A stretch of DNA of 45,776 nucleotides from Actinomycetes bacterium (GTDB lineage Bacteria; Actinomycetota; Coriobacteriia; Anaerosomatales; Anaerosomataceae): contig JAJFTE010000100.1 in assembly GCA_021373175.1 (NCBI GenBank), positions 1 through 45,776 of the forward strand. The letters are read 5' to 3'. Every line of letters starts with the position of its first letter. Within the stretch, counting starts at the first letter, position 1. Both the position numbers and the translations under genes were made by a program. The notes below the pieces were generated by a model. That model saw nothing but the letters and a program-made list of their open reading frames with translations. It ran no database searches and had not been told where the DNA came from. Shown one piece after another: positions 11,966-23,095 of this stretch.

Positions 11966-13420
11966 CTAGAAGAGCGCCAGCACCGAACTCAAGAACGAGA
12001 GCCCGTAGAAGAACGGCAGGACGCCGATGGCGAGCACACACACAGCCAGAACGATGGTGGCCCATTCGGCCTTCATGTCCGGCGTGGCCCCTGCCGGCGC
12101 GCTGTCCGTTTCAACCACACTCGGCTCCTCAAGATACATGGACCTGATCACCCCGCCATAGTATCCGAACGACACCACGGACCCGAGCAGACCTACCGCG
12201 GCAAGCCAGGCGTGCCCTGCGGTCGCCGCGTCGCCGAAGGCCAGGAACTTTCCCCAGAATCCGGCGGTCAGCGGAATGCCCGTAAGCGACAGCATCATCA
12301 CAGTAAGTGCTGCCGAGAGGGCGGGCCGCTTACGGCCGACCCCCGCCAGACCAGCTACCGTGCCATCCCATGTTGGCATTGCCGAGCGGACCGCCTGCGC
12401 GCCCATGAAGGCACCGGCTGCGGCCACCGCGTAGGCGAGCCCCGCCACGAGAACGGCGAAGCCAGTGCGCTGCGGAAGAAGGAAAGCCGCTGCCGCGCCC
12501 ACGAGCGCGTAGCCCACCTGCGCGATGCCCGAGTATGCGAGCATGCGTGTGAACGAGGTCTGCTTCAGGCCGGTGAAGTTACCGAAGACGATCGACGCCG
12601 TCGCAAGCAGAGCGAACAAGAAGAACCCGGACGTCGCGAACTCCTCGGCCGAAAAACCGATCATCGGGAAGACGAGCATGAGCGATGCAAGGATCGCCAG
12701 CTTGGGCGCCGTGCCCATGAACGCGGTGACCGATGGCGTCGCTGTCTCGTAGGCATCGGGCGCCCACGAGTGGAACGGGAACGCGCTCAGCTTGAACGCG
12801 TACATCCCCATCAAGAGCGCCATAGCCACCAACGCCGGACGTCCCGCGCCGGTGAGGCTCTTGGCGATCTCGGGCAGGAAGACGCTCCCGCTGAACAAAC
12901 CGAAGATGATCGACAGCGCGTAGAGTGCGAATCCGGTAGCCACAGCACCCTGGATGAAGTACTTCATCGCCGCCTCGTCGGAGCGACGCTGCCGACGTGC
13001 GGATACGAGCGCATAGCTGATCATCGCGATGGCCTCAAGCGCGATGATCACGATGAGGAGGTCCAGCGTTGAGGCCATGAGCGAGGACGCCGCGGCCAAC
13101 AGTGCCGTGAGCACCGCCACCTGCCCGCCCGTGGAAGCATCCGCAAGGACCTTGCTGCCACCGACGAGCGTGATGGCCGCGATAAGGAACACGACCGCTG
13201 AGATTGCGGAGTATCCCCTGCCAACAGCCATGTTCGTCACGTTTATCAGCGTCGGGCTGTAGACGATCGCCAGCCAACCGCTCACGACACCAGCTGCCAG
13301 CAGGCCTGCCGAGACAACGCCGATGGCGAGCCCGCGGCGGTCGAACGCGTCGAACGCAAGGCCGAGTATCGCGCCCGCAGACGCCAACAGAATGGGGGAA
13401 AGTGAGAGCCACAGGCTCAC
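11966..13420 (-). CDS. nuoN: NADH-quinone oxidoreductase subunit N
   Basis: NuoN is one of three antiporter-like membrane subunits of complex I that pump protons. The 484-residue protein is very hydrophobic with about 14 spans and has family motifs such as KYFIQGAVATGFALY, FHSWAPDAYE, and LAYSGIAQVGYALVG, including the membrane lysine and glutamate region. It starts at GTG 13420 in a GTGA overlap with the nuoM stop, with AGGAGGT upstream inside nuoM. It is the last gene of the operon. Confidence 0.93.
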   Translation of the reverse strand: MSLWLSLSPILLASAGAILGLAFDAFDRRGLAIGVVSAGLLAAGVVSGWLAIVYSPTLINVTNMAVGRGYSAISAVVFLIAAITLVGGSKVLADASTGGQVAVLTALLAAASSLMASTLDLLIVIIALEAIAMISYALVSARRQRRSDEAAMKYFIQGAVATGFALYALSIIFGLFSGSVFLPEIAKSLTGAGRPALVAMALLMGMYAFKLSAFPFHSWAPDAYETATPSVTAFMGTAPKLAILASLMLVFPMIGFSAEEFATSGFFLFALLATASIVFGNFTGLKQTSFTRMLAYSGIAQVGYALVGAAAAFLLPQRTGFAVLVAGLAYAVAAAGAFMGAQAVRSAMPTWDGTVAGLAGVGRKRPALSAALTVMMLSLTGIPLTAGFWGKFLAFGDAATAGHAWLAAVGLLGSVVSFGYYGGVIRSMYLEEPSVVETDSAPAGATPDMKAEWATIVLAVCVLAIGVLPFFYGLSFLSSVLALF

Positions 13421-14838
13421 AGCGCACCTCCTGTCACAGCAGCCAGTGCCCTCAGAGCCGGCTCGGCCATCCCTGTCACGAACTGCGGCCACACACCGAC
13501 GACCACGATGCCCACGGCAAGCGGAGCGACGGCCAGCCACTCGGCAAGACCGAGATCCGCGATGCCGGCGAACTCCTCGGCCACCGGACCGTGATTGACG
13601 CGCCGAACCGCCGTGAGGTTGTAGGCCGCGGAGAAGACCACGCCGAGTGCGGCAAGCGCCGTCCACCAGCCGATGGAGCCCCACGATTCGAGCACGGCCG
13701 CAAGCTCACCGGGGAAGCCCGAAAGCCCCGGAAGGCCGAGGCTCGCCAGCGCCGCAAAGGTGAAGGCGGTCGCCCAGGCCGGCAGCACCTTGCCGAAGCC
13801 GCCAAGGCGCGACATCTCGTAGGTGCCCGTGCGCTCGTACAGCTGACCTGCAAGCAGGAAGAGCATGCCCGCGACAAGGCCGTGGCTGATCATCACGAGC
13901 ATGGCCGCGCCCAGCGCGAGCGGCGTGCCGATGCCGATGGCCAGCACGACGAAGCCCATGTGCGCGATCGACGAGTACGCGATCAAGCGCTTGAGATCGC
14001 TTTGCGCTAGCGCTACGAGCGCGCCGTAGATGATGCCGATGATGCCGAGCGCGACAAGCACAGGCCGCGCGGCGTCGTAGGCGGCCGGCGCGATCGGGAT
14101 CGCGATACGCAGAAGCGCATACGCGCCCATCTTTGCAAGCACACCCGAGAGCAGGATCGAGCCGGAGGTGGGTGCCTGCGTGTAGGCGTCCGGCTGCCAC
14201 GTGTGCAGGCCCACGACCGGGAGCTTCATCAGAAAACCGATGGAGAGCAACCAGAAGACCGGTCCCTGCAAGCCGACGGACAGAGGAGTCGACAACAAAT
14301 CCCCCATAGCGAAGGCGTTGCCCTGGAACATAGCGATGATGAGTCCCACAAGCATGAGCGCGCTGCCGGCAAAGGTGTAGATGAAGAACTTCATCGCGGC
14401 ATGGCGCCGGTTCTCGGCACCCCAGATCCCGATGATGAAGTACATCGGGATGAGCACCGCTTCCCAGAACGCATAGAAGAGCACCAGGTTGCCGGCGAGG
14501 AACACGCCGGACACGCTCGCCTGCACCGCGAGCAGCAAGGCATAGTGCGCGGCGGGCGAACGTGTCTCGCTTCGTGCGGCGAGCACCGCGATCACGCCAA
14601 GGAAGCCGGTGAGCAGCAGCAGCGGGGCAGCGATCCCGTCCATGGTGAGCATCCACCACTGGGCCGCGCCCGATGCCGCCTGGCTGCCCGATGAGGTAGC
14701 AACGGCGGCGATGACAACGCCGAAGGAAGCGAGTGAAGCGAGAAGCGCGAGAACGCGCGCGACCTTAGCAGAAAGCCGCCCGAGCAGCGCGACGATCAAG
14801 CTGCCGAGCAGCGGAGTGAGAATCACAGCGGTTAACAC
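13417..14838 (-). CDS. nuoM: NADH-quinone oxidoreductase subunit M
   Basis: A 473-residue antiporter-like proton-pumping subunit with about 14 membrane spans. Family motifs include FYAFWEAVLIPMYFIIGIWG (with the conserved membrane glutamate), KFFIYTFAGSALMLVG, LPVVGLHTWQPDAY and AYSSIAHMGFV. The preferred start is GTG 14838, 5 bp after the nuoL stop and 7 nt after GGAGGTGA; an ATG at 14859 would overlap nuoL and lacks a ribosome site. It lies between nuoL and nuoN. Confidence 0.93.
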   Translation of the reverse strand: MLTAVILTPLLGSLIVALLGRLSAKVARVLALLASLASFGVVIAAVATSSGSQAASGAAQWWMLTMDGIAAPLLLLTGFLGVIAVLAARSETRSPAAHYALLLAVQASVSGVFLAGNLVLFYAFWEAVLIPMYFIIGIWGAENRRHAAMKFFIYTFAGSALMLVGLIIAMFQGNAFAMGDLLSTPLSVGLQGPVFWLLSIGFLMKLPVVGLHTWQPDAYTQAPTSGSILLSGVLAKMGAYALLRIAIPIAPAAYDAARPVLVALGIIGIIYGALVALAQSDLKRLIAYSSIAHMGFVVLAIGIGTPLALGAAMLVMISHGLVAGMLFLLAGQLYERTGTYEMSRLGGFGKVLPAWATAFTFAALASLGLPGLSGFPGELAAVLESWGSIGWWTALAALGVVFSAAYNLTAVRRVNHGPVAEEFAGIADLGLAEWLAVAPLAVGIVVVGVWPQFVTGMAEPALRALAAVTGGAL

Positions 14839-14843
14839 GCCCG

Positions 14844-16724
14844 TCACCTCCCCAACCATCCGAGTATGGTTTCAAGCGCCCCGGGCGAGATCGCCAGAGC
14901 GACAAGCACGACCGCACCAAGTCCCATGAGCACCGCATAACGCTGACCGTCACCCGTCTGGAGCCGGGCGAACCAGGCGCCGAGCTTCCGGGAGACAACA
15001 GCCGAACCTTCGACGATCCCGTCGAACACCGCACGGTCGAAGAAGGCGTACAGGCCCTGCGCGGCGGCGGTCACCGGTGCAACGATAAAGCGCCCGGCAG
15101 CCGCATCGGCGTAGTACCCGGCGCGTGAAGCGCGCCATAGGCCGCCGAGGGAGCCCTCAAGCGACGTATCGGCAGCCGGACCGCGCCGGTACAGAAGAAC
15201 CCCGACCACGATGCCAATGAGAGCCACCGTTGTGGAGATCGCAGCCACGGTCATTGACAGCGCTTCGTGCTCGCCGCCAAGCGTTGTGGCGATGCCGCTG
15301 GCCGCAAAGCCCAGCCCTGCGGCCGGTATGGCAAGGGCCACCAGCGGCAGCCACATCACCGGACCACCTTCGTGCGGGTGGTTGGACCCACGGTACGAGC
15401 CGAAGAACGTGAGCACCGTGGCTCGCGTGATGTAAAACGCGGTGAACGCCGCGGCGATCACCAGCGCCACGAAGGCCACCGGAGAGGCCAGCATGACGCC
15501 ATGGAGGACTTCGTCTTTCGCGAAGAATCCCGAGAACAGCGGTACCCCGGCAAGCGCCGCGGCACCCACGATCCAGGTGAACGCGGTGATCGGCATCGTC
15601 TTGGCAAGACCGCCCATCTCACGCATGTCCTGGGTATCGGACCCGTGGATCACCGAGCCCGACCCGAGGAAGAGGAGCGCCTTGAACGACGCGTGCGCCG
15701 CGAGGTAGAAGATGGCGGCGCGCCACGCACCGGCACCGAGCGCGGCGAACATGAAGCCGAGCTGGCTGATCGTGGAATACGCGAGCACCTTCTTGATGTC
15801 GTTCTGGCCCACGGCGATCGTTGCCGAGGCAAGAGCCGTGAACGTGCCGATCACCAGCACCACGGTAAGCGCCGCCGGAGAGGCCGCGAAGACCGGCCAC
15901 ATGCGCGCCACAAGGAACACACCCGCGGCGACCATGGTGGCGGCGTGGATGAGTGCCGAGACCGGCGTGGGACCTTCCATCGCGTCCGGCAGCCATATAT
16001 GGAGCGGGAACTGCGCGGACTTACCGGCCGCGCCGATGAAGAGCAGGATAGCCACTGCCGTGACCAGGCCCCCGGAGAGCTGCGGGAGCGCGGCGATGAT
16101 GCCGGCGTAGCTGGTCTCACCGGTGGTACCCCACAGGATGGCGAGCGCCACGAACAGTCCTACGTCGCCGATGCGGGTGACGATGAACGCCTTCATCGCG
16201 GCTGCCGCAGCTGATGGCTTGTTGAACCAGAAACCGATCAACAGATAGCTGCATGCGCCCACGAGCTCCCAGAATACGAAGAGCCCGACGAGCCCGTCGG
16301 CGATCACCAGGCCCGTCATGGAGGCCGTGAACAGTGACAGGAGCGCGAAATAGCGCGCCTGGCCGGGATCGTCAGCCATGTACCCCACCGAGAACACCAT
16401 GACCATAAGGGCTACGAACCCCACGACCACCAGCATCACGGCGGTGAGGCCGTCCACGGCGTAGCCGATCTTGAGTGCGAAATCACCCACGCTGATCCAA
16501 GTTAGCGAGCCTGCCGCTGTCGTGGCGCTCACGAACGGCGCCGTGACCCCGCCAGAGCCTGCAGCGCCAAGGTGAGCTATACCCGTGCCGAGAACCGCGA
16601 GCGGCCCTAGCATGGCCAACCAGCGCATGAACGGCGCCAGCCGCGAGCCGCCTGCGCCCACCACGAGCGCAAGCCCCAGGGGAAGCGCTACGGCGATCCA
16701 GGGTGCATCGAACCAGACGCCCAT
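14844..16724 (-). CDS. nuoL: NADH-quinone oxidoreductase subunit L
   Basis: NuoL is the distal proton-pumping subunit of complex I, with a C-terminal lateral helix. The 626-residue protein has FVFWELVGACSYLLIGFWFN, KAFIVTRIGDVGLFVAL, FPLHIWLPDAMEGPTPVSALIHAATMV (shown in part) and YSTISQLGFMFAALG, all typical. The C-terminal about 120 residues fit the lateral helix and last span. ATG 16724 overlaps the nuoK stop (TGATG). Confidence 0.95.
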   Translation of the reverse strand: MGVWFDAPWIAVALPLGLALVVGAGGSRLAPFMRWLAMLGPLAVLGTGIAHLGAAGSGGVTAPFVSATTAAGSLTWISVGDFALKIGYAVDGLTAVMLVVVGFVALMVMVFSVGYMADDPGQARYFALLSLFTASMTGLVIADGLVGLFVFWELVGACSYLLIGFWFNKPSAAAAAMKAFIVTRIGDVGLFVALAILWGTTGETSYAGIIAALPQLSGGLVTAVAILLFIGAAGKSAQFPLHIWLPDAMEGPTPVSALIHAATMVAAGVFLVARMWPVFAASPAALTVVLVIGTFTALASATIAVGQNDIKKVLAYSTISQLGFMFAALGAGAWRAAIFYLAAHASFKALLFLGSGSVIHGSDTQDMREMGGLAKTMPITAFTWIVGAAALAGVPLFSGFFAKDEVLHGVMLASPVAFVALVIAAAFTAFYITRATVLTFFGSYRGSNHPHEGGPVMWLPLVALAIPAAGLGFAASGIATTLGGEHEALSMTVAAISTTVALIGIVVGVLLYRRGPAADTSLEGSLGGLWRASRAGYYADAAAGRFIVAPVTAAAQGLYAFFDRAVFDGIVEGSAVVSRKLGAWFARLQTGDGQRYAVLMGLGAVVLVALAISPGALETILGWLGR

Positions 16725-17023
16725 CAGCCCTCCACCTCCGTCAGTTCATCGACACGACTGCGGTCGCTGTGCCGTGCCACGGTGACCAGCAGGCCAAGAC
16801 CGATGGCGGCTTCCGCCGCCACAAGCACGAGAAGCACGAGCCCGATCGCCTCGGTCAGCGCTGGATCGGCGACTCCAGAACTCATGGAGAGTCCGATGAG
16901 CTGCACGGTCGCCGCACCGAGCATGACTTCGATGCTCGCCAGAACACCCACGATGTCGCGACGTACCAGAATACCGTACACGCCCAGGGAGAATAGCGCC
17001 GCGCATACGACAAGGATGCTCAT
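16724..17023 (-). CDS. nuoK: NADH-quinone oxidoreductase subunit K
   Basis: A 99-residue, three-span membrane subunit, normal length for NuoK. The second and third helices hold the conserved glutamates (GVLASIEVMLGAATVQ and LVLVAAEAAIGLGLLV) that take part in proton translocation. It starts in a TAATG overlap with nuoJ and ends in a TGATG overlap with nuoL. Confidence 0.95.
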   Translation of the reverse strand: MSILVVCAALFSLGVYGILVRRDIVGVLASIEVMLGAATVQLIGLSMSSGVADPALTEAIGLVLLVLVAAEAAIGLGLLVTVARHSDRSRVDELTEVEG

Positions 17024-17508
17024 TACCGCTCACCCCCTGTGATCGCGAGAACCGCCACGAGGCCCGCAAGCAGCAGGCCACCGACGATCTCGAAGTGCGG
17101 CAGTAGTGCGCCGAGGAGCATGTCGCCCACGGCGGGAATCCCCGCGCCCGCAACGGACGCGGTACCCGGGGCAACGACGCCCGAGAGCCCGAAGACGAGC
17201 AGGCCGAAGAGCGCGAGAGCCACCACGGCGGCGCCGAAGGTATTCCGGTTGCTCAGAACCGGTTCGGATTCCACCGAACGGTGGACGGTCATGATGGCGA
17301 CGACGACCAAGACAAGCACGCCGCCAACGTAGATGAAGATCTCGGCGATGGCCAGAAACGTTGCCCCGTAGAAGAGGTAGTAACCAGCCACCGAGAGCAG
17401 GAACGCGCCAAGGCCGAGCACAAGGCGCATGACGTCGCGCGTGGAGATCACGACGATGGCGCCGGTGATCGCTACGGCGGCGAGGAGATAGAAGAGCACT
17501 GTGCTCAT
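17023..17508 (-). CDS. nuoJ: NADH-quinone oxidoreductase subunit J
   Basis: A 161-residue membrane subunit with about five spans and the conserved segment FLAIAEIFIYVGGVLVLVVV (helix 3, with the pi-bulge glycine region). ATG 17508 overlaps the stop of the large nuoI fusion by four bases (ATGA). Confidence 0.94.
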   Translation of the reverse strand: MSTVLFYLLAAVAITGAIVVISTRDVMRLVLGLGAFLLSVAGYYLFYGATFLAIAEIFIYVGGVLVLVVVAIMTVHRSVESEPVLSNRNTFGAAVVALALFGLLVFGLSGVVAPGTASVAGAGIPAVGDMLLGALLPHFEIVGGLLLAGLVAVLAITGGER

Positions 17509-19586
17509 GTGGTCTCCCCCTTCGAGGCATGGTCGGCTGCGGCGTCGGCGCCCGTTGCTCTGGTGCCGCTGACATCACGGAGCATCTCGCCCTTGTCGAA
17601 GAGCGTGAGGTCCCTGTTATAGAACGAGAGCTCGTATTGACCCGACATCTGAAGCGCACCCGTTGGGCATTGCTCGGCGCACAGACCACAGAAGCAGCAC
17701 TTGGAAAGGTCGAGATCGTACTTGGTGACCATCCGGTCGCCAGGATCGTCCCGGCGCTCAACGGTGATGCAGTAATCGGGACACGTCCGAGCGCAGAAGG
17801 TGCATCCCACACAGATGTTCGTCTCACAGCGTAGGCAGCGAGCACCCTCCGCGAGACCCTCTTCGACGGTAAGCCCCAACTCCACGTTCCGGAAGTCCTT
17901 CGACCGCTCGTCCGGATCGGAGAACGGCATCACGGCACGCAGCCGTGAAGGTTCTACGTGATCGAGGTTCGCGGGAGCGTATTTGTCGTAGGCAAGCAGC
18001 GTGCGGGCGACACGGTCATCGCTCACGCTCTCGCCGGACAAGAAGCGGTGGACCGACGTTGCAGCTTCGTGGCCGGTCGCTATCGAAGCGATGGCGCTGC
18101 CCGGTCCGGTCACGCACTCGCCCGAGGCGAAGATCTTCGGCACGGCCGTCGTGAACACCGAACGGTCGGAAGGGAGGTTGCCCCGCTGGTCGAGCTCAAG
18201 GCCCGTTCCGGCGACGATGTCTTTGAGGTCAGAACCCTGGCCGATCGCCATCACCACCGATTGCACGCTCAGTTCCGTGAAATCATCGCCGAACGTAGGA
18301 TTGAACCGGCCGGTCTCGTCGAAGACAGACAGGCACGTCTGAAGGCGCATGCCCCTCACGTGGTTGCTCTCGTCCACCAGCACTTCGTTCGGGCCGTTGC
18401 CGCACATCATCACAACGCCCTCGTCGAGTGCCTCTTCGACTTCCCACGGGTGCGCCGGGAGCTGCTCATCCGACTCGAGCGAGGCCATGTAGACCGTCTT
18501 GGCGCCCACTCGCAGAGCGCACCGAGCCGCGTCGACGGCCACGTTGCCGCCTCCGATCACGAGAACGTTCTGACCGCGCACGCCCGCTTCGCCCCTATAG
18601 TTCGAGTCCTTAAGGAAGTCGAGGGCTCCCCGCACGCCGATCGCGTCCTGGCCTTTCACCCCGGGGAAGCGGCTGATCTGCAGGCCGGCAGCGATGATGA
18701 TCGCGTCGTAATCGGCCATGAGTTGCTCGGGAGAGATGTCCACGCCGATCTTCGTACTGCATTGGATCTCGACACCCATCGTGACAAGGTCGTCGATCTC
18801 GCCGTGAAGGATGTCACGCGGCAGGCGGTACGCCGGGATGCCGTAGTAGAGCGCCCCACCCGGTTTGTCTTCCTTCTCGAAGATCTTGACCTCGTAGCCG
18901 AGCTTGACGAGATCGTACGCGGCGGCCAGGCCAGAGGGACCCGAACCGATGATGGCGACCTTCTTGCCCCGCGTCTTGGGCAGCGGCTTCACGTACTGGG
19001 CCTTCACCGGGTTCCACTGCTCGTAAGCCACCCGGTGCAGCGGCCGGATCGCGATAGGCTCGTCGTAGAAGTTGCGCTTGCACGCCGTCTCGCACGGGTG
19101 GTGACAGATGCGACCGAGCGTCCCGGGCATGATGTTGCGCTCGCGGACCAGCTGGTACGCCTCGACCCACCGGCCCTCGGCGGCGTGATAGTTCTGGCCA
19201 CGCGCATCCACGTTGGCCGGACAGTTGCCCTGGCACGGCGCCAGGTGGTCCGTCGCATACGCGTCGGCGATGAGCCCGTTGTACTCGAGCGAAGACGCCT
19301 CCATGAGCGGAACCTCTGTGGTGCCCATAGCGCTCACGAGACGAGGAGCACCGCGCCAGCGCTCGGGCATCGGTGCCTTCTCGCGCGGGTATTGGATAGT
19401 AACGGGCTTAGTGAATGCATGCTTTGCGGTGATGCCAAGGCCGGTAGCCAGCGACTTCCACGCGCCGACGAAACCCGCGACGCCCGCTTGATCGGTGGTA
19501 GCCGCCGAAACGGTACCCTGCGTCACCTTCGGCTCGGACGATTCTCCGGTGTCGATCTCCGGTGTGTCGACGTCATCTACAGCCAT
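17505..19586 (-). CDS. nuoI: NuoI with an inserted GltD-type NAD(P)H oxidoreductase
   Basis: At 693 residues this is roughly four times a normal NuoI. Residues 39-84 are the NuoI N-terminus (AWKSLATGLGITAKHAFTKP, then TIQYPREKAPMPERWRG). A GltD-like flavoprotein follows: Fe-S cysteines C118, C122, C161, C165 and C169; FAD loop GSGPSG (214-219); a second nucleotide loop GGGNVA (345-350); and ASGECVTGPGS near 487-497. NuoI then resumes with two [4Fe-4S] motifs, C592/C595/C598/C602 and C630/C633/C636/C640, plus a linker pair C584/C587, ending ELSFYNRDLTLFDKGEML. It occupies the nuoI slot between nuoH and nuoJ, overlapping nuoH by 10 bp. Since nuoEFG are absent, the insert probably takes electrons from NAD(P)H and passes them to the NuoI clusters; that is inference. 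Confidence 0.92.
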   Translation of the reverse strand: MAVDDVDTPEIDTGESSEPKVTQGTVSAATTDQAGVAGFVGAWKSLATGLGITAKHAFTKPVTIQYPREKAPMPERWRGAPRLVSAMGTTEVPLMEASSLEYNGLIADAYATDHLAPCQGNCPANVDARGQNYHAAEGRWVEAYQLVRERNIMPGTLGRICHHPCETACKRNFYDEPIAIRPLHRVAYEQWNPVKAQYVKPLPKTRGKKVAIIGSGPSGLAAAYDLVKLGYEVKIFEKEDKPGGALYYGIPAYRLPRDILHGEIDDLVTMGVEIQCSTKIGVDISPEQLMADYDAIIIAAGLQISRFPGVKGQDAIGVRGALDFLKDSNYRGEAGVRGQNVLVIGGGNVAVDAARCALRVGAKTVYMASLESDEQLPAHPWEVEEALDEGVVMMCGNGPNEVLVDESNHVRGMRLQTCLSVFDETGRFNPTFGDDFTELSVQSVVMAIGQGSDLKDIVAGTGLELDQRGNLPSDRSVFTTAVPKIFASGECVTGPGSAIASIATGHEAATSVHRFLSGESVSDDRVARTLLAYDKYAPANLDHVEPSRLRAVMPFSDPDERSKDFRNVELGLTVEEGLAEGARCLRCETNICVGCTFCARTCPDYCITVERRDDPGDRMVTKYDLDLSKCCFCGLCAEQCPTGALQMSGQYELSFYNRDLTLFDKGEMLRDVSGTRATGADAAADHASKGETT

Positions 19587-20527
19587 GCGATCACCACCCC
19601 AACGATCACGATCTGCACCAGTGCCATGGGTGTAAGCACCTTCCAAGAGGTAGCCATGAGCTGATCCGGACGCATGCGGGGGAAGGTCCACTTCGCCCAC
19701 ATGAACGCGATAACAAGCAGGACGGTCTTGACGAGCAGCACCAGCACACCCAGCACGCCGGAAAGCGGCCACGTGCCGCCGAGGAAGACCACCGAGCCGA
19801 AGAGCGCGGCTGCGGTCATGCCGCCATACTCGGACATCATGAACATGGCCCAGCGAATGCCGCTGTAGTCGGTGAAGTAGCCGCCAACGAGCTCGGAGTC
19901 ACACTCGGCCAGGTCGAACGGCCCGCGGTTGAGCTCGGCGATCGATGCGATGAAGTACACCACGAACGCGATCAGCGTGACCGGCAGCCACCAGATCCTC
20001 CATTCGCCCATCAGCGTCACTGGCTGCATGGTGCCGGCGAGCATCACGACAGCGAGGACCGAAAGCGATCGCGGGACCTCGTAAGAGATCATCTGCGCCG
20101 CGCCCCGGAGTCCGCCGAGCGATGCGTACGTGTTGCGCTGCGACCAGCCAGCGAAAAGAACGCCGAGCACGGAGATCGAGGGGACCGCGAGGAAGAACAG
20201 GATGCCGATCGACGTATCGAGCGGTGCCCAGCCGGCGGCGAACGGGATTATCACCAACGAGGAGATGATCGGCGTGGTCATGAAGAGCGGGGCGATGTTG
20301 AACAGGCCCCGCCGCGCCTGCTTAGGATGGATGTCCTCTTTGGTGAGCAGCTTGAGCAGGTCGTACACGAGCTGGAAGATGCCGAAGACCGGCGCCGTGT
20401 TCGGCCCGTAACGCTTCTGGATGTGGCCGGCGACTTTCCGCTCGCCCCAGACGCCCAAGATCGTGGAGATCCCGACAAGAACGCCCGCACCGAGGCCCCA
20501 GACAACGCCACCCCAGTAGCCGGTCAT
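19577..20527 (-). CDS. nuoH: NADH-quinone oxidoreductase subunit H
   Basis: NuoH joins the peripheral and membrane arms and helps form the quinone chamber. The 316-residue, about eight-span protein has GERKVAGHIQKRYGPN, ISYEVPRSLSVLAVVM, the acidic loop AELNRGPFDLAECDSELVGG (E-rich loop 1-type region) and FPRMRPDQLMATSWKVL. ATG 20527 overlaps the nuoD stop by four bases. Confidence 0.95.
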   Translation of the reverse strand: MTGYWGGVVWGLGAGVLVGISTILGVWGERKVAGHIQKRYGPNTAPVFGIFQLVYDLLKLLTKEDIHPKQARRGLFNIAPLFMTTPIISSLVIIPFAAGWAPLDTSIGILFFLAVPSISVLGVLFAGWSQRNTYASLGGLRGAAQMISYEVPRSLSVLAVVMLAGTMQPVTLMGEWRIWWLPVTLIAFVVYFIASIAELNRGPFDLAECDSELVGGYFTDYSGIRWAMFMMSEYGGMTAAALFGSVVFLGGTWPLSGVLGVLVLLVKTVLLVIAFMWAKWTFPRMRPDQLMATSWKVLTPMALVQIVIVGVVIAWL

Positions 20528-21672
20528 CGGTCCACCTCCCCAAAGACGGGGTCGAATGACCCGACGATGATCACGAGATCAGAGATCGTGTGGCCGACGG
20601 CCAACGTTCCTACCACCGACAGGTTCGTGAAGGCGGGAGAACGGACTTTCATCCTCCAGGGACGAACGCTCCCGTCAGAGACCAGGTACACGCCAAGCGT
20701 GCCACGTGCGGACTCTATTCGCTCGTACACTTCGCCCGCAGGCGGTGCGATGAGGCGCGGGATCGATGGGGCCGTCGTGCGTCCCGGCTCCATTTGGTCG
20801 AGCGCCTGCTCGATGATGCGAAGCGACTCGTAACACTCAAGCAGCCGGCAGCGCGAGCGCTCAAAGGAGTCTCCGCTCTCGCCCACCACAACATCGAAGC
20901 TGAACCTGTCGTAGACCGAGTACGGCTCGTCACGACGCAGGTCGAAGTCGACACCGCTTGCGCGGAGACTCGGCCCTGTCACACCGGCGGCGATCGCGTC
21001 TTCAGCTGATAGAACGCCGATGCCCTTGGTGCGGTCCTTGGCGATCACGTTGCCGAAGAAGAGCCGGTCGAGCTCCTCAAGCGCCGCGGGTGTCTTCTTA
21101 CACAACGCGCGAAGATCCTCGACCCAGCCGTCCTCGGGAATGTCAAACGACACACCGCCGGGACGCACGTAGTTGTAGGTGAGCCGAGAGCCCGAGAGGC
21201 GGGCAAGCAGATCGACGACCTGCTCCCGGATCCAGAACGCCAGCACGAAGAACGACGTGGCGCCCGCGTCGTTGCCGGCGGATCCCACTGCCATCATGTG
21301 GCTCGCAACCCGCTGCAGCTCGCAGGTGATCACGCGCAGATACTCGGCGCGCTCGGGCACTGTGATGCCCATGAGCTTTTCAACCGCGCGGGAGTACGCC
21401 CAGTTGTTGTACATGGAACCCACGTAATCCAGACGGTCAGTGAGCGGCACGACCTGGAGGTACGTGCGGTTCTCGGCGATCTTCTCGATGCCCCGGTGAA
21501 GATAGCCGATGACCAGATCGGCCTCCGTCACGACCTCACCATCGAGGTGCGTGATGATGCGACACACCCCGTGAGTGGAGGGGTGCGACGGCCCGACGTT
21601 GACCACCATCTCGCGGACGGAAGGACCGTCGCTTACGATCTCGGCGGCAGTGCCCTGTGCGTCATTCGTCAT
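20524..21672 (-). CDS. nuoD: NADH-quinone oxidoreductase subunit D
   Basis: The 382-residue peripheral-arm subunit forms part of the quinone site with NuoB. It has VNVGPSHPSTHGVCR (the conserved His pair loop), IGYLHRGIEKIAENRTY, YNNWAYSRAVEKL, a conserved YNYVRPGGVSFDIP and the C-terminal RSPAFTNLSVVGTLAVGH and SFDPVFGEVDR. The cysteines of true hydrogenase large subunits are missing, as expected for complex I. It lies 12 bp after nuoC. Confidence 0.95.
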   Translation of the reverse strand: MTNDAQGTAAEIVSDGPSVREMVVNVGPSHPSTHGVCRIITHLDGEVVTEADLVIGYLHRGIEKIAENRTYLQVVPLTDRLDYVGSMYNNWAYSRAVEKLMGITVPERAEYLRVITCELQRVASHMMAVGSAGNDAGATSFFVLAFWIREQVVDLLARLSGSRLTYNYVRPGGVSFDIPEDGWVEDLRALCKKTPAALEELDRLFFGNVIAKDRTKGIGVLSAEDAIAAGVTGPSLRASGVDFDLRRDEPYSVYDRFSFDVVVGESGDSFERSRCRLLECYESLRIIEQALDQMEPGRTTAPSIPRLIAPPAGEVYERIESARGTLGVYLVSDGSVRPWRMKVRSPAFTNLSVVGTLAVGHTISDLVIIVGSFDPVFGEVDR

Positions 21673-21684
21673 TCGTCACACCTC

Positions 21685-22146
21685 CTAGATGTAGTCGGGA
21701 CGAGGGATGATGTTCTCGTCGACGTAGTCTTTGCGAAGCGGCGACCCCTCGAAATCAAACGGCATCATGATCCGCCGCAGGTCGGGATGACCCCTGAACT
21801 CGATGCCGAACAGATCGTAGACCTCACGCTCGAGCCAATCGGCGGCCGTATAGAGATCCACCATCGACGCCACCCATGCGGCATCTCTTGGCACGAACGT
21901 CCTCACCCAGATGACGACCTTCATTCCGAGAGAGTGAAGGATGTAGACCACTTCCAGGTTCTCGCCGCGGTCCACCGCGGTAACCATTTCAAACTGATTG
22001 AAGCCGAATCCCTTCAGCCTCTCGATGGTGTCATGCACGACATCGGAGGACACCGTCACAACGGCCTCTCCCTTGTCAATCGAGAACGACGAGGCCAGAT
22101 CCGGAAACTCTTTCAGGAGCCGTTCGCTCAGATCCTCGGCTTTCAC
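21685..22146 (-). CDS. nuoC: NADH-quinone oxidoreductase subunit C
   Basis: A 153-residue, 30-kDa-subunit family protein of the peripheral arm. The C-terminal signature is clear: [20 protein letters not shown] and [14 protein letters not shown]. NuoC and NuoD are separate here, not fused. ATG 22146 overlaps the nuoB stop (ATGA). Confidence 0.94.
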
Positions 22147-22721
22147 GCGCTTTCACCTCGATCCTCAATAGCAACGCGGGGCGAGGACGTGGGCAGGAGG
22201 AGCTTGTGCTCGTAGGTGCGCCCCCCGGCGACTGACTCGTTGCGAATCTTGTCACGCAGCTGCAGGATCGCATCCTGAAGGGCCTCCGGGCGTGGGGGGC
22301 AGCCGGCGATATAGACGTCCACCGGAAGGAACGAGTCCACGCCGGGCATGACTGCATACGTGTCGTAATGGAAGATCCCGCCCGAAACCGTGCAGTTGCC
22401 CATTGCGATGCACCAGCGCGGCTCGGCCATCTGCTCCCAGACGCGCAGGACTGCGGGTGCCATCTTTCGGGAGATCGTCCCGGCAACGACCATCACGTCA
22501 ACGGAGCGCGGGTCGGCTCGGGGAAACGTGCCGTGCCGGTCGAGGTCGAACTTGGAGAACGAAGATGCGATGAGTTCCATCGCGCAACACGCTGTGCCCA
22601 TAGGCTGGGACCACAGCGAGTGACCCCGGCTCCAGTCGAGCAGTGCGTCGAACGAAGTGAGGATGACACTGCCCCCGGGCATCTTCTCAAGCGTCTGGCC
22701 GAGGTCGTCGATTATCGCCAC
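22143..22721 (-). CDS. nuoB: NADH-quinone oxidoreductase subunit B
   Basis: NuoB carries cluster N2, the last Fe-S cluster before quinone. The 192-residue product has the paired cysteines in GTACCAMEL, a third in [13 protein letters not shown] and a fourth in [16 protein letters not shown] 22721 is preferred: GGGAG lies 7 nt upstream, whereas the in-frame ATG at 22742 has no ribosome site. It overlaps the end of nuoA by 10 bp. Confidence 0.94.
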
Positions 22722-23095
22722 TGCAGCGCTCCCTTCTTCCATGCGTAGAACAGACCGAACGCGAGGAACGCGGCGAAAGCGCCACCCTCGATCAGCCCGG
22801 TGAGGGATCCCCGCAACCGGGTAGCGATTGCGAAGAGCAGGATCGATTCGGCGTCGAAGAGCACGAACAGCAACGCGATGGTGGAGAACCGTACGTTGTA
22901 GTTCGCGTGCGGCTCGCCGGCCTGTTCCATGCCACACTCGTACGGCAGGTTCTTGGCGGTGGATGGTCGCTTGGGCGCAAGGAGGCCACCCATTCCGATC
23001 ACCAAGCCGATGAAGCCGAGCGTGGCCGTGAGCAGGCCAAGAACAAACATCAGATTCTGCGATGCACCCAACTTCTCACCCCTCTTCAGACTCAT
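22712..23095 (-). CDS. nuoA: NADH-quinone oxidoreductase subunit A
   Basis: A 127-residue, three-span membrane subunit with the typical KNLPYECGMEQAGEPHANYN loop and FVLFDAESILLFAIA helix. It is the first gene of the operon. ATG 23095 gives an N-terminus of MSLKRGEKLG; an internal TTG at 23071, with AGGGGTGA just before it, is a credible alternative start and would shorten the protein by eight residues. Confidence 0.92.
   Translation of the reverse strand: MSLKRGEKLGASQNLMFVLGLLTATLGFIGLVIGMGGLLAPKRPSTAKNLPYECGMEQAGEPHANYNVRFSTIALLFVLFDAESILLFAIATRLRGSLTGLIEGGAFAAFLAFGLFYAWKKGALQWR

Follow-up and report, generated by a model that had tools for sequence, protein, structure and literature searches.

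We describe a complex I operon whose NuoI subunit carries a GltD-type flavoprotein module within its own chain. The operon comprises an eleven-gene core, and we consider it probable, at roughly three chances in four, that a GltD-type NAD(P)H dehydrogenase built into NuoI replaces the NuoEFG input of the complex; this reading is drawn from the anatomy of the sequences.

A GltD-Type Module Nested within NuoI

The fusion gene lies on the minus strand of the window (the whole stretch of DNA analyzed, 45,776 nucleotides) as a single open frame that starts at ATG and has 693 codons; the plus strand over the same region contains many stops. Its parts, and the residues discussed below, are as follows.

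17505..19586, minus strand: nuoI-gltD-nuoI fusion gene, 693 aa, stop at 17505-17507 (frame and domain searches)
19329..19481, minus strand: NuoI N-terminal segment, aa 36-86, helix and PVTIQYPxEK..RWRG strand (matches to NuoI chains in the PDB)
17823..19253, minus strand: inserted GltD-type module, aa 112-588, with Fer4_20 cluster domain, FAD and NAD(P) Rossmann domains and C-terminal RCxxC (domain and structural matches)
19035..19037, minus strand: His184, at the place of StnC K170 (alignments)
18474..18479, minus strand: L370-E371, at the place of the NfnB Arg-Arg pair (alignments)
17826..17840, minus strand: R583-C584-L-R-C587, predicted to supply the last two ligands to the distal GltD cluster, ahead of NuoI ligand C592 (alignments)
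17568..17822, minus strand: NuoI two-[4Fe-4S] ferredoxin and tail, aa 589-673, with C592/595/598/640 (N6a) and C602/630/633/636 (N6b) (NCBIfam and alignments)

Pfam recognizes Fer4_20 (116-189), Pyr_redox_2 (208-505), and Fer4_7 (592-644) in the protein, and the module contains the motifs of GltD/PRK12771-type proteins, namely the Fer4_20 cluster domain, the FAD GxGxxG, and the NAD(P) GGGN. The PRK12771-type GltD profile matches aa 111-648 (E = 3.6e-138) with 461.6 bits, short of its curated cut-off of 516 bits; judged by this score, the inserted module is a divergent PRK12771 relative. The flanking sequence belongs to NuoI: the NuoI family TIGR01971 matches aa 589-666 (E = 9e-28), and aa 1-111 alone, searched against the PDB, match only NuoI/TYKY chains (best 2.1e-6, residues 37-82). 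When the two flanks are spliced without the insert, the resulting chain retains the N-terminal helix and strand and the two [4Fe-4S] motifs of a NuoI, and aligns in one piece and collinearly with residues 4-143 of Thermus Nqo9 (E = 7.5e-28); the insert follows the RWRG strand and precedes the first NuoI cluster motif. Because the spliced NuoI is collinear with Nqo9 and the N-terminus is itself NuoI-like, the arrangement is a nested insertion and not an end-to-end joining of neighboring genes. A first-pass annotation of this DNA had proposed a GltD module nested in a 693-codon gene at the nuoI slot, which the frame, the domain searches, and the Nqo9 alignment bear out; it was also right to single out insertion within NuoI as the unusual point, for which StnC, with GltD inside a NuoG-like chain, offers a precedent in principle.

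An AlphaFold2 model of the fusion has a mean pLDDT of 78.8, exceeding 90 over most of the GltD module and falling to about 30-70 in the NuoI parts; it does not fix how NuoI is placed against the module. The modeled module (aa 112-589) superposes on Caldicellulosiruptor NfnABC 9bov_A (Z 45.1; VIA) and on StnC 8oh5_C (Z 43.6, 465 residues, 2.8 A).

An Eleven-Gene Complex I Operon without NuoEFG

All eleven genes of the core were recognized by Pfam, or by NCBIfam for NuoA, in the order A-B-C-D-H-I-J-K-L-M-N. The fusion gene shares 10 bases with nuoH and 4 with nuoJ (ATG at 17508), and thus sits within a tightly packed operon.

22712..23095, minus strand: nuoA (NCBIfam)
22143..22937, minus strand: nuoB, open frame extending back into nuoA, true start probably near 22720; N2 cysteines CC, C, C
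21685..22146, minus strand: nuoC (Pfam)
20524..21672, minus strand: nuoD (Pfam), quinone-site motifs HPSTHG and RLDY kept
19577..20527, minus strand: nuoH (Pfam)
17023..17508, minus strand: nuoJ (Pfam)
16724..17023, minus strand: nuoK (Pfam)
14844..16724, minus strand: nuoL (Pfam)
13417..14859, minus strand: nuoM (Pfam)
11966..13684, minus strand: nuoN (Pfam), open frame, true start probably near 13420

Alignments confirm the N2 ligands of NuoB and the quinone-site His and Tyr of NuoD. An apparent N-terminal extension of NuoB by about 80 residues was rejected as a probable start-site artefact, given its overlap with nuoA. The gene order, lacking E, F, and G, had been read in the same way in the first-pass annotation, and the Pfam and NCBIfam searches of the window agree with it: no nuoEFG was found in the operon or elsewhere in the window, setting the operon apart from a canonical 14-subunit complex I with its NuoE, NuoF, and NuoG input module.

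To follow the suggestion that the rest of the genome be checked for nuoEFG, the host genome (2.15 Mb, 98.9% complete) was searched family by family, and the resulting genome-wide statement covers NuoE and NuoF. Neither NuoE (PF01257) nor the iron-sulfur domain of NuoF (PF10589) has a match anywhere in the genome; the same searches were each positive in 7 of 14 control genomes. The genome does encode a second complex I-like operon (L053, G000:C13, 2209-11843), which likewise lacks NuoEFG and whose NuoI is an ordinary, separate protein, as well as a separate NfnAB pair (G000:C115). Homologues of NuoF occur in 18 of 69 relatives. Their pairing with the fusion was rejected for the one genome checked (L055, G031:C198), where the NuoE/F-like genes adjoin Wood-Ljungdahl genes and a separate nuoB-CD-H-I-K-L set, all on one strand with genes for a corrinoid protein, a GltD-Fd, a MetV-like protein, and a methyltransferase. 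PF10589 matches in the more distant fusion genomes fall in frames of 561-1103 aa, which is longer than respiratory NuoF, and the loci inspected have no adjoining nuo core except L187 (see below); L188 shows weak NuoB/D-like matches.

With respect to the quinone, no match to the MqnA/D domain was found in the genome, which has two UbiA-family genes. UbiD-, UbiA-, and UbiX-like genes stand together at one locus (L192, G000:C3, 26-2866), the UbiD- and UbiX-like frames being judged by eye. Quinones were reported as undetected in two cultured members of the order (PMC9686372). The missing MqnA/D domain and the undetected quinones, like the second operon with its ordinary NuoI, weigh against the reading favored here.

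Cluster Ligands and a Predicted Electron Path

The cysteines named here are kept in 54-56 of 56 aligned fusions. In NfnB, the cluster ligands follow the pattern RCxxCx4Cx3CP and then a second motif (PMC6405883); in the fusion, the Cx3CP part corresponds to C118/C122, and the RCxxC part lies at the other end of the module (R583-C587), as in StnC. In StnC, K170 is an unusual ligand of the FAD-adjacent cluster (PMC10482914), and the equivalent position 184 is His in 47 and Lys in 9 of the 56 fusions. We infer that the proximal cluster is held by C122, C161, C165, and probably H184. As this cluster would take three of the five N-terminal cysteines together with a non-Cys ligand, the distal cluster would be left with C118 and C169, completed by C584 and C587.

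The spacing between C587 and C592 is exactly five residues in 55 of 55 readable fusions, and five residues span not much more than about 17 A. If both cysteines ligate their clusters, this fixed spacing places the distal GltD cluster adjacent to N6a. For comparison, electrons in StnC pass from NADPH through FAD, C7, and C6 onward over distances of 9-18 A (PMC10482914). In the proposed mechanism, the FAD in the inserted module would accept a hydride from NAD(P)H (in this organism, most likely NADH), and single electrons would pass from it to the proximal and then the distal [4Fe-4S] cluster and directly on to N6a and N6b of NuoI. From there they would reach N2 in NuoB and a quinone at the NuoB/NuoD site, and this flow would drive the H-J-K-L-M-N proton pump. 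Where the distal cluster of NfnB is the predicted docking place for a free ferredoxin, the "ferredoxin" would here be NuoI itself, permanently tethered. That the module serves as the input in place of NuoEFG, as first proposed in the earlier annotation, is thus supported anatomically, by the absence of NuoE and NuoF, the conserved architecture, and the continuous series of predicted cluster ligands.

Coenzyme Specificity

Two arginines of NfnB form hydrogen bonds with the extra phosphate of NADP (PMC6405883). At this 2'-phosphate site, the present protein has L370-E371, and the readable fusions that do not belong to family f39 likewise have Leu-Glu; in contrast, the seven readable f39 fusions (L153-L156 and L159-L161) have Arg-Arg, together with Lys instead of His at position 184. 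An acidic residue at such a position in Rossmann folds normally selects NADH. Owing to this difference, we predict that the present protein favors NADH and that the f39 fusions use NADPH, in which case the Arg-Arg and Lys of f39 would possibly represent a natural coenzyme switch within the same architecture. It should be noted that Leu-Glu is also the rule among unfused PRK12771 relatives and is hence inherited; an NADH-specific selection caused by the fusion was rejected for this reason.

Distribution and Evolution of the Fusion

The search for the same domain order, suggested in the first-pass annotation, found the fusion in 60 of 69 genomes of the same order at 55-64% identity, two of the 60 being cut by contig ends; 80 genomes of the class from outside this order all lack it. 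Using an alignment as query for distant relatives, we found 13 further full-length fusions among 396 sampled genomes of the phylum Actinomycetota, in six other families and at 41-48% identity, and one in an Elusimicrobia MAG at 49-50% identity; as this is the only case in 295 sampled Elusimicrobiota genomes, transfer or mis-binning is likely there. Almost every locus examined has the fusion gene in place of nuoI in an A-B-C-D-H-I-J-K-L-M-N operon, with nuoH and nuoJ as its usual neighbors; rearranged operons are present in G189 and G428. Internal TGA or TAA codons in distant fusions were not adopted as recoding, since in the two f39 cases checked the frame ends normally there. In one MAG, the fusion gene lies in two frames (L166, G382:C124, 4695-6541), possibly through a sequencing error or a true split.

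In a tree of GltD modules, the fusions form one group (98% aLRT), which also holds two unfused f39 paralogues; a single origin of the fusion remains compatible with this topology, and the fusion may have arisen once. In the NuoD tree, a branch with a weak support of 78 separates the fusion operons from the second complex I. The nearest sequence relatives of the module are unfused PRK12771-type GltD-ferredoxin proteins (about 40-44% identity), and close unfused paralogues sit in Wood-Ljungdahl operons beside genes for a corrinoid protein, MetV/MetF-like proteins, and a methyltransferase (AcsE); of these neighbors, the corrinoid protein and methyltransferase were assigned by profile, and MetV/MetF and CODH by position and eye. 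These paralogue neighborhoods suggest anaerobic C1 metabolism as the source from which the module was taken.

Two further GltD arrangements were observed. At L187 (G428:C28, 6084-11534), nuoA-B-C-D are followed by a 645-aa protein joining a NuoF-type 4Fe-4S domain to a GltD module and then by a NuoG-like protein, which is a second, different way of attaching GltD to complex I. At L190 (G372:C17, 7362-10448), a 1028-aa protein with NuoE-like, NuoF, and GltD domains is encoded beside Wood-Ljungdahl genes.

Alternative Explanations

An assembly artefact, a frameshift, or a decaying fusion can be practically dismissed: the frame is uninterrupted, its neighbors overlap it by only a few bases, and dozens of independently assembled genomes, one of them in a single contig, show the same order, which rules out the erroneous joining of two genes that the first-pass annotation had named as a hazard. 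The one distant MAG with a split gene (G382) lends no support to it here. Highly improbable, too, is a flavin that bifurcates or confurcates, sending part of the electrons from NAD(P)H along the NuoI/quinone path and the rest to ferredoxin or another second acceptor. In its favor, R254 of the fusion, which corresponds to NfnB R201 and StnC R239, is invariant, but StnC also keeps this arginine, and the FAD of StnC, the closest solved module, is reported to be non-bifurcating (PMC10482914). Moreover, the operon has no NfnA-like partner with [2Fe-2S] and a second FAD, NfnAB being encoded separately, and a single cluster path leads out of the module, leaving the bifurcating complex envisaged earlier without support.

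Two other alternatives retain the same complex. Its physiological donor could be NADPH, which the characterized structural relatives NfnB, StnC, and GltD bind and for which the f39 fusions keep the arginine pair; we regard this as improbable for the present protein, where the NfnB arginines align with Leu-Glu as in the readable fusions outside f39, and the earlier suggestion of a possibly NADPH-linked enzyme is accordingly not supported for this protein. Somewhat less improbable, yet still unlikely, is a complex working mainly in reverse, in which the proton motive force and reduced quinone would reduce NAD+ at the GltD flavin and so supply reductant for CO2 fixation in H2 or formate lithotrophs. 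Complex I is reversible, and the second NuoEFG-less complex I of the genome could run forward. Isolates of the order have been grown on either H2 or formate together with Fe(III), sulfur, or thiosulfate (PMC9686372). However, the direction is not set by sequence, and the architecture fits forward flow equally well. We therefore favor an eleven-gene complex I fed by NAD(P)H through the module within NuoI.

Implications

The electron donor of complex I without NuoEFG is an open question (PMC11238625). The architecture described here gives a testable answer for one widespread group, namely that the donor enzyme is encoded within NuoI, and it favors a replaceable input module of complex I; in these anaerobic, mostly uncultured bacteria, the electron-input end looks like a swappable plug-in. 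As a single-polypeptide wire from NAD(P)H to N6b, it would be useful to structural and engineering work. We tentatively suggest, at a little short of even odds, that GltD modules have joined complex I repeatedly (inside NuoI, and as the NuoF-type 4Fe-4S fusion by nuoABCD in G428), that the coenzyme has switched within the NuoI-insert family between NADH (Leu-Glu, His) and NADPH (Arg-Arg, Lys), and that the input end is hence an exchangeable cassette in evolution.

Comparison with Known Systems

The isolates of the order are reported to have no NuoEFG, and ferredoxin was put forward as their hypothetical donor (PMC9686372). The available portions of that paper do not mention the fusion, nor do those of a survey of complex I variants (PMC12361115) and of a survey of archaeal fusions (PMC11237513), and a search of the open-access literature, the scope of which excluded subscription papers, found no report of a NuoI fusion with GltD or glutamate synthase.

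The closest parallel is StnABC/NfnABC (StnC; PDB 8oh5, 9bov, and 9n5u; PMC10482914), where a GltD-type module likewise lies inside a complex I-type subunit (aa 102-565 of the NuoG-like StnC) and shares the fold (Z 42-45), the Cys pattern, and the C-terminal position of RCxxC in the module. StnC differs in that its host subunit is NuoG-like, soluble, and without a membrane arm, in its coupling to the bifurcating HydBC-like StnAB, and in having Arg-Arg (NADPH) and Lys where the present fusion has Leu-Glu and His. The 11-subunit enzymes lacking NuoEFG (Desulfitobacterium, PMC11238625; NDH-1, Fpo/Fqo, and Campylobacter) share the core nuoABCDHIJKLMN, whereas their donor, where known, is ferredoxin, flavodoxin, or an additional subunit (FpoF), as opposed to a pyridine-nucleotide flavoenzyme within NuoI. 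The flavin domains of NfnB, GltD, and dihydropyrimidine dehydrogenase have the same FAD, NAD(P), and Fer4_20 fold, but their RCxxC ligands are N-terminal, and they carry NADPH arginines and have other partners. Most PRK12771-type GltD-ferredoxin proteins share both the Leu-Glu and the RCxxC, and differ in being unfused to NuoI.
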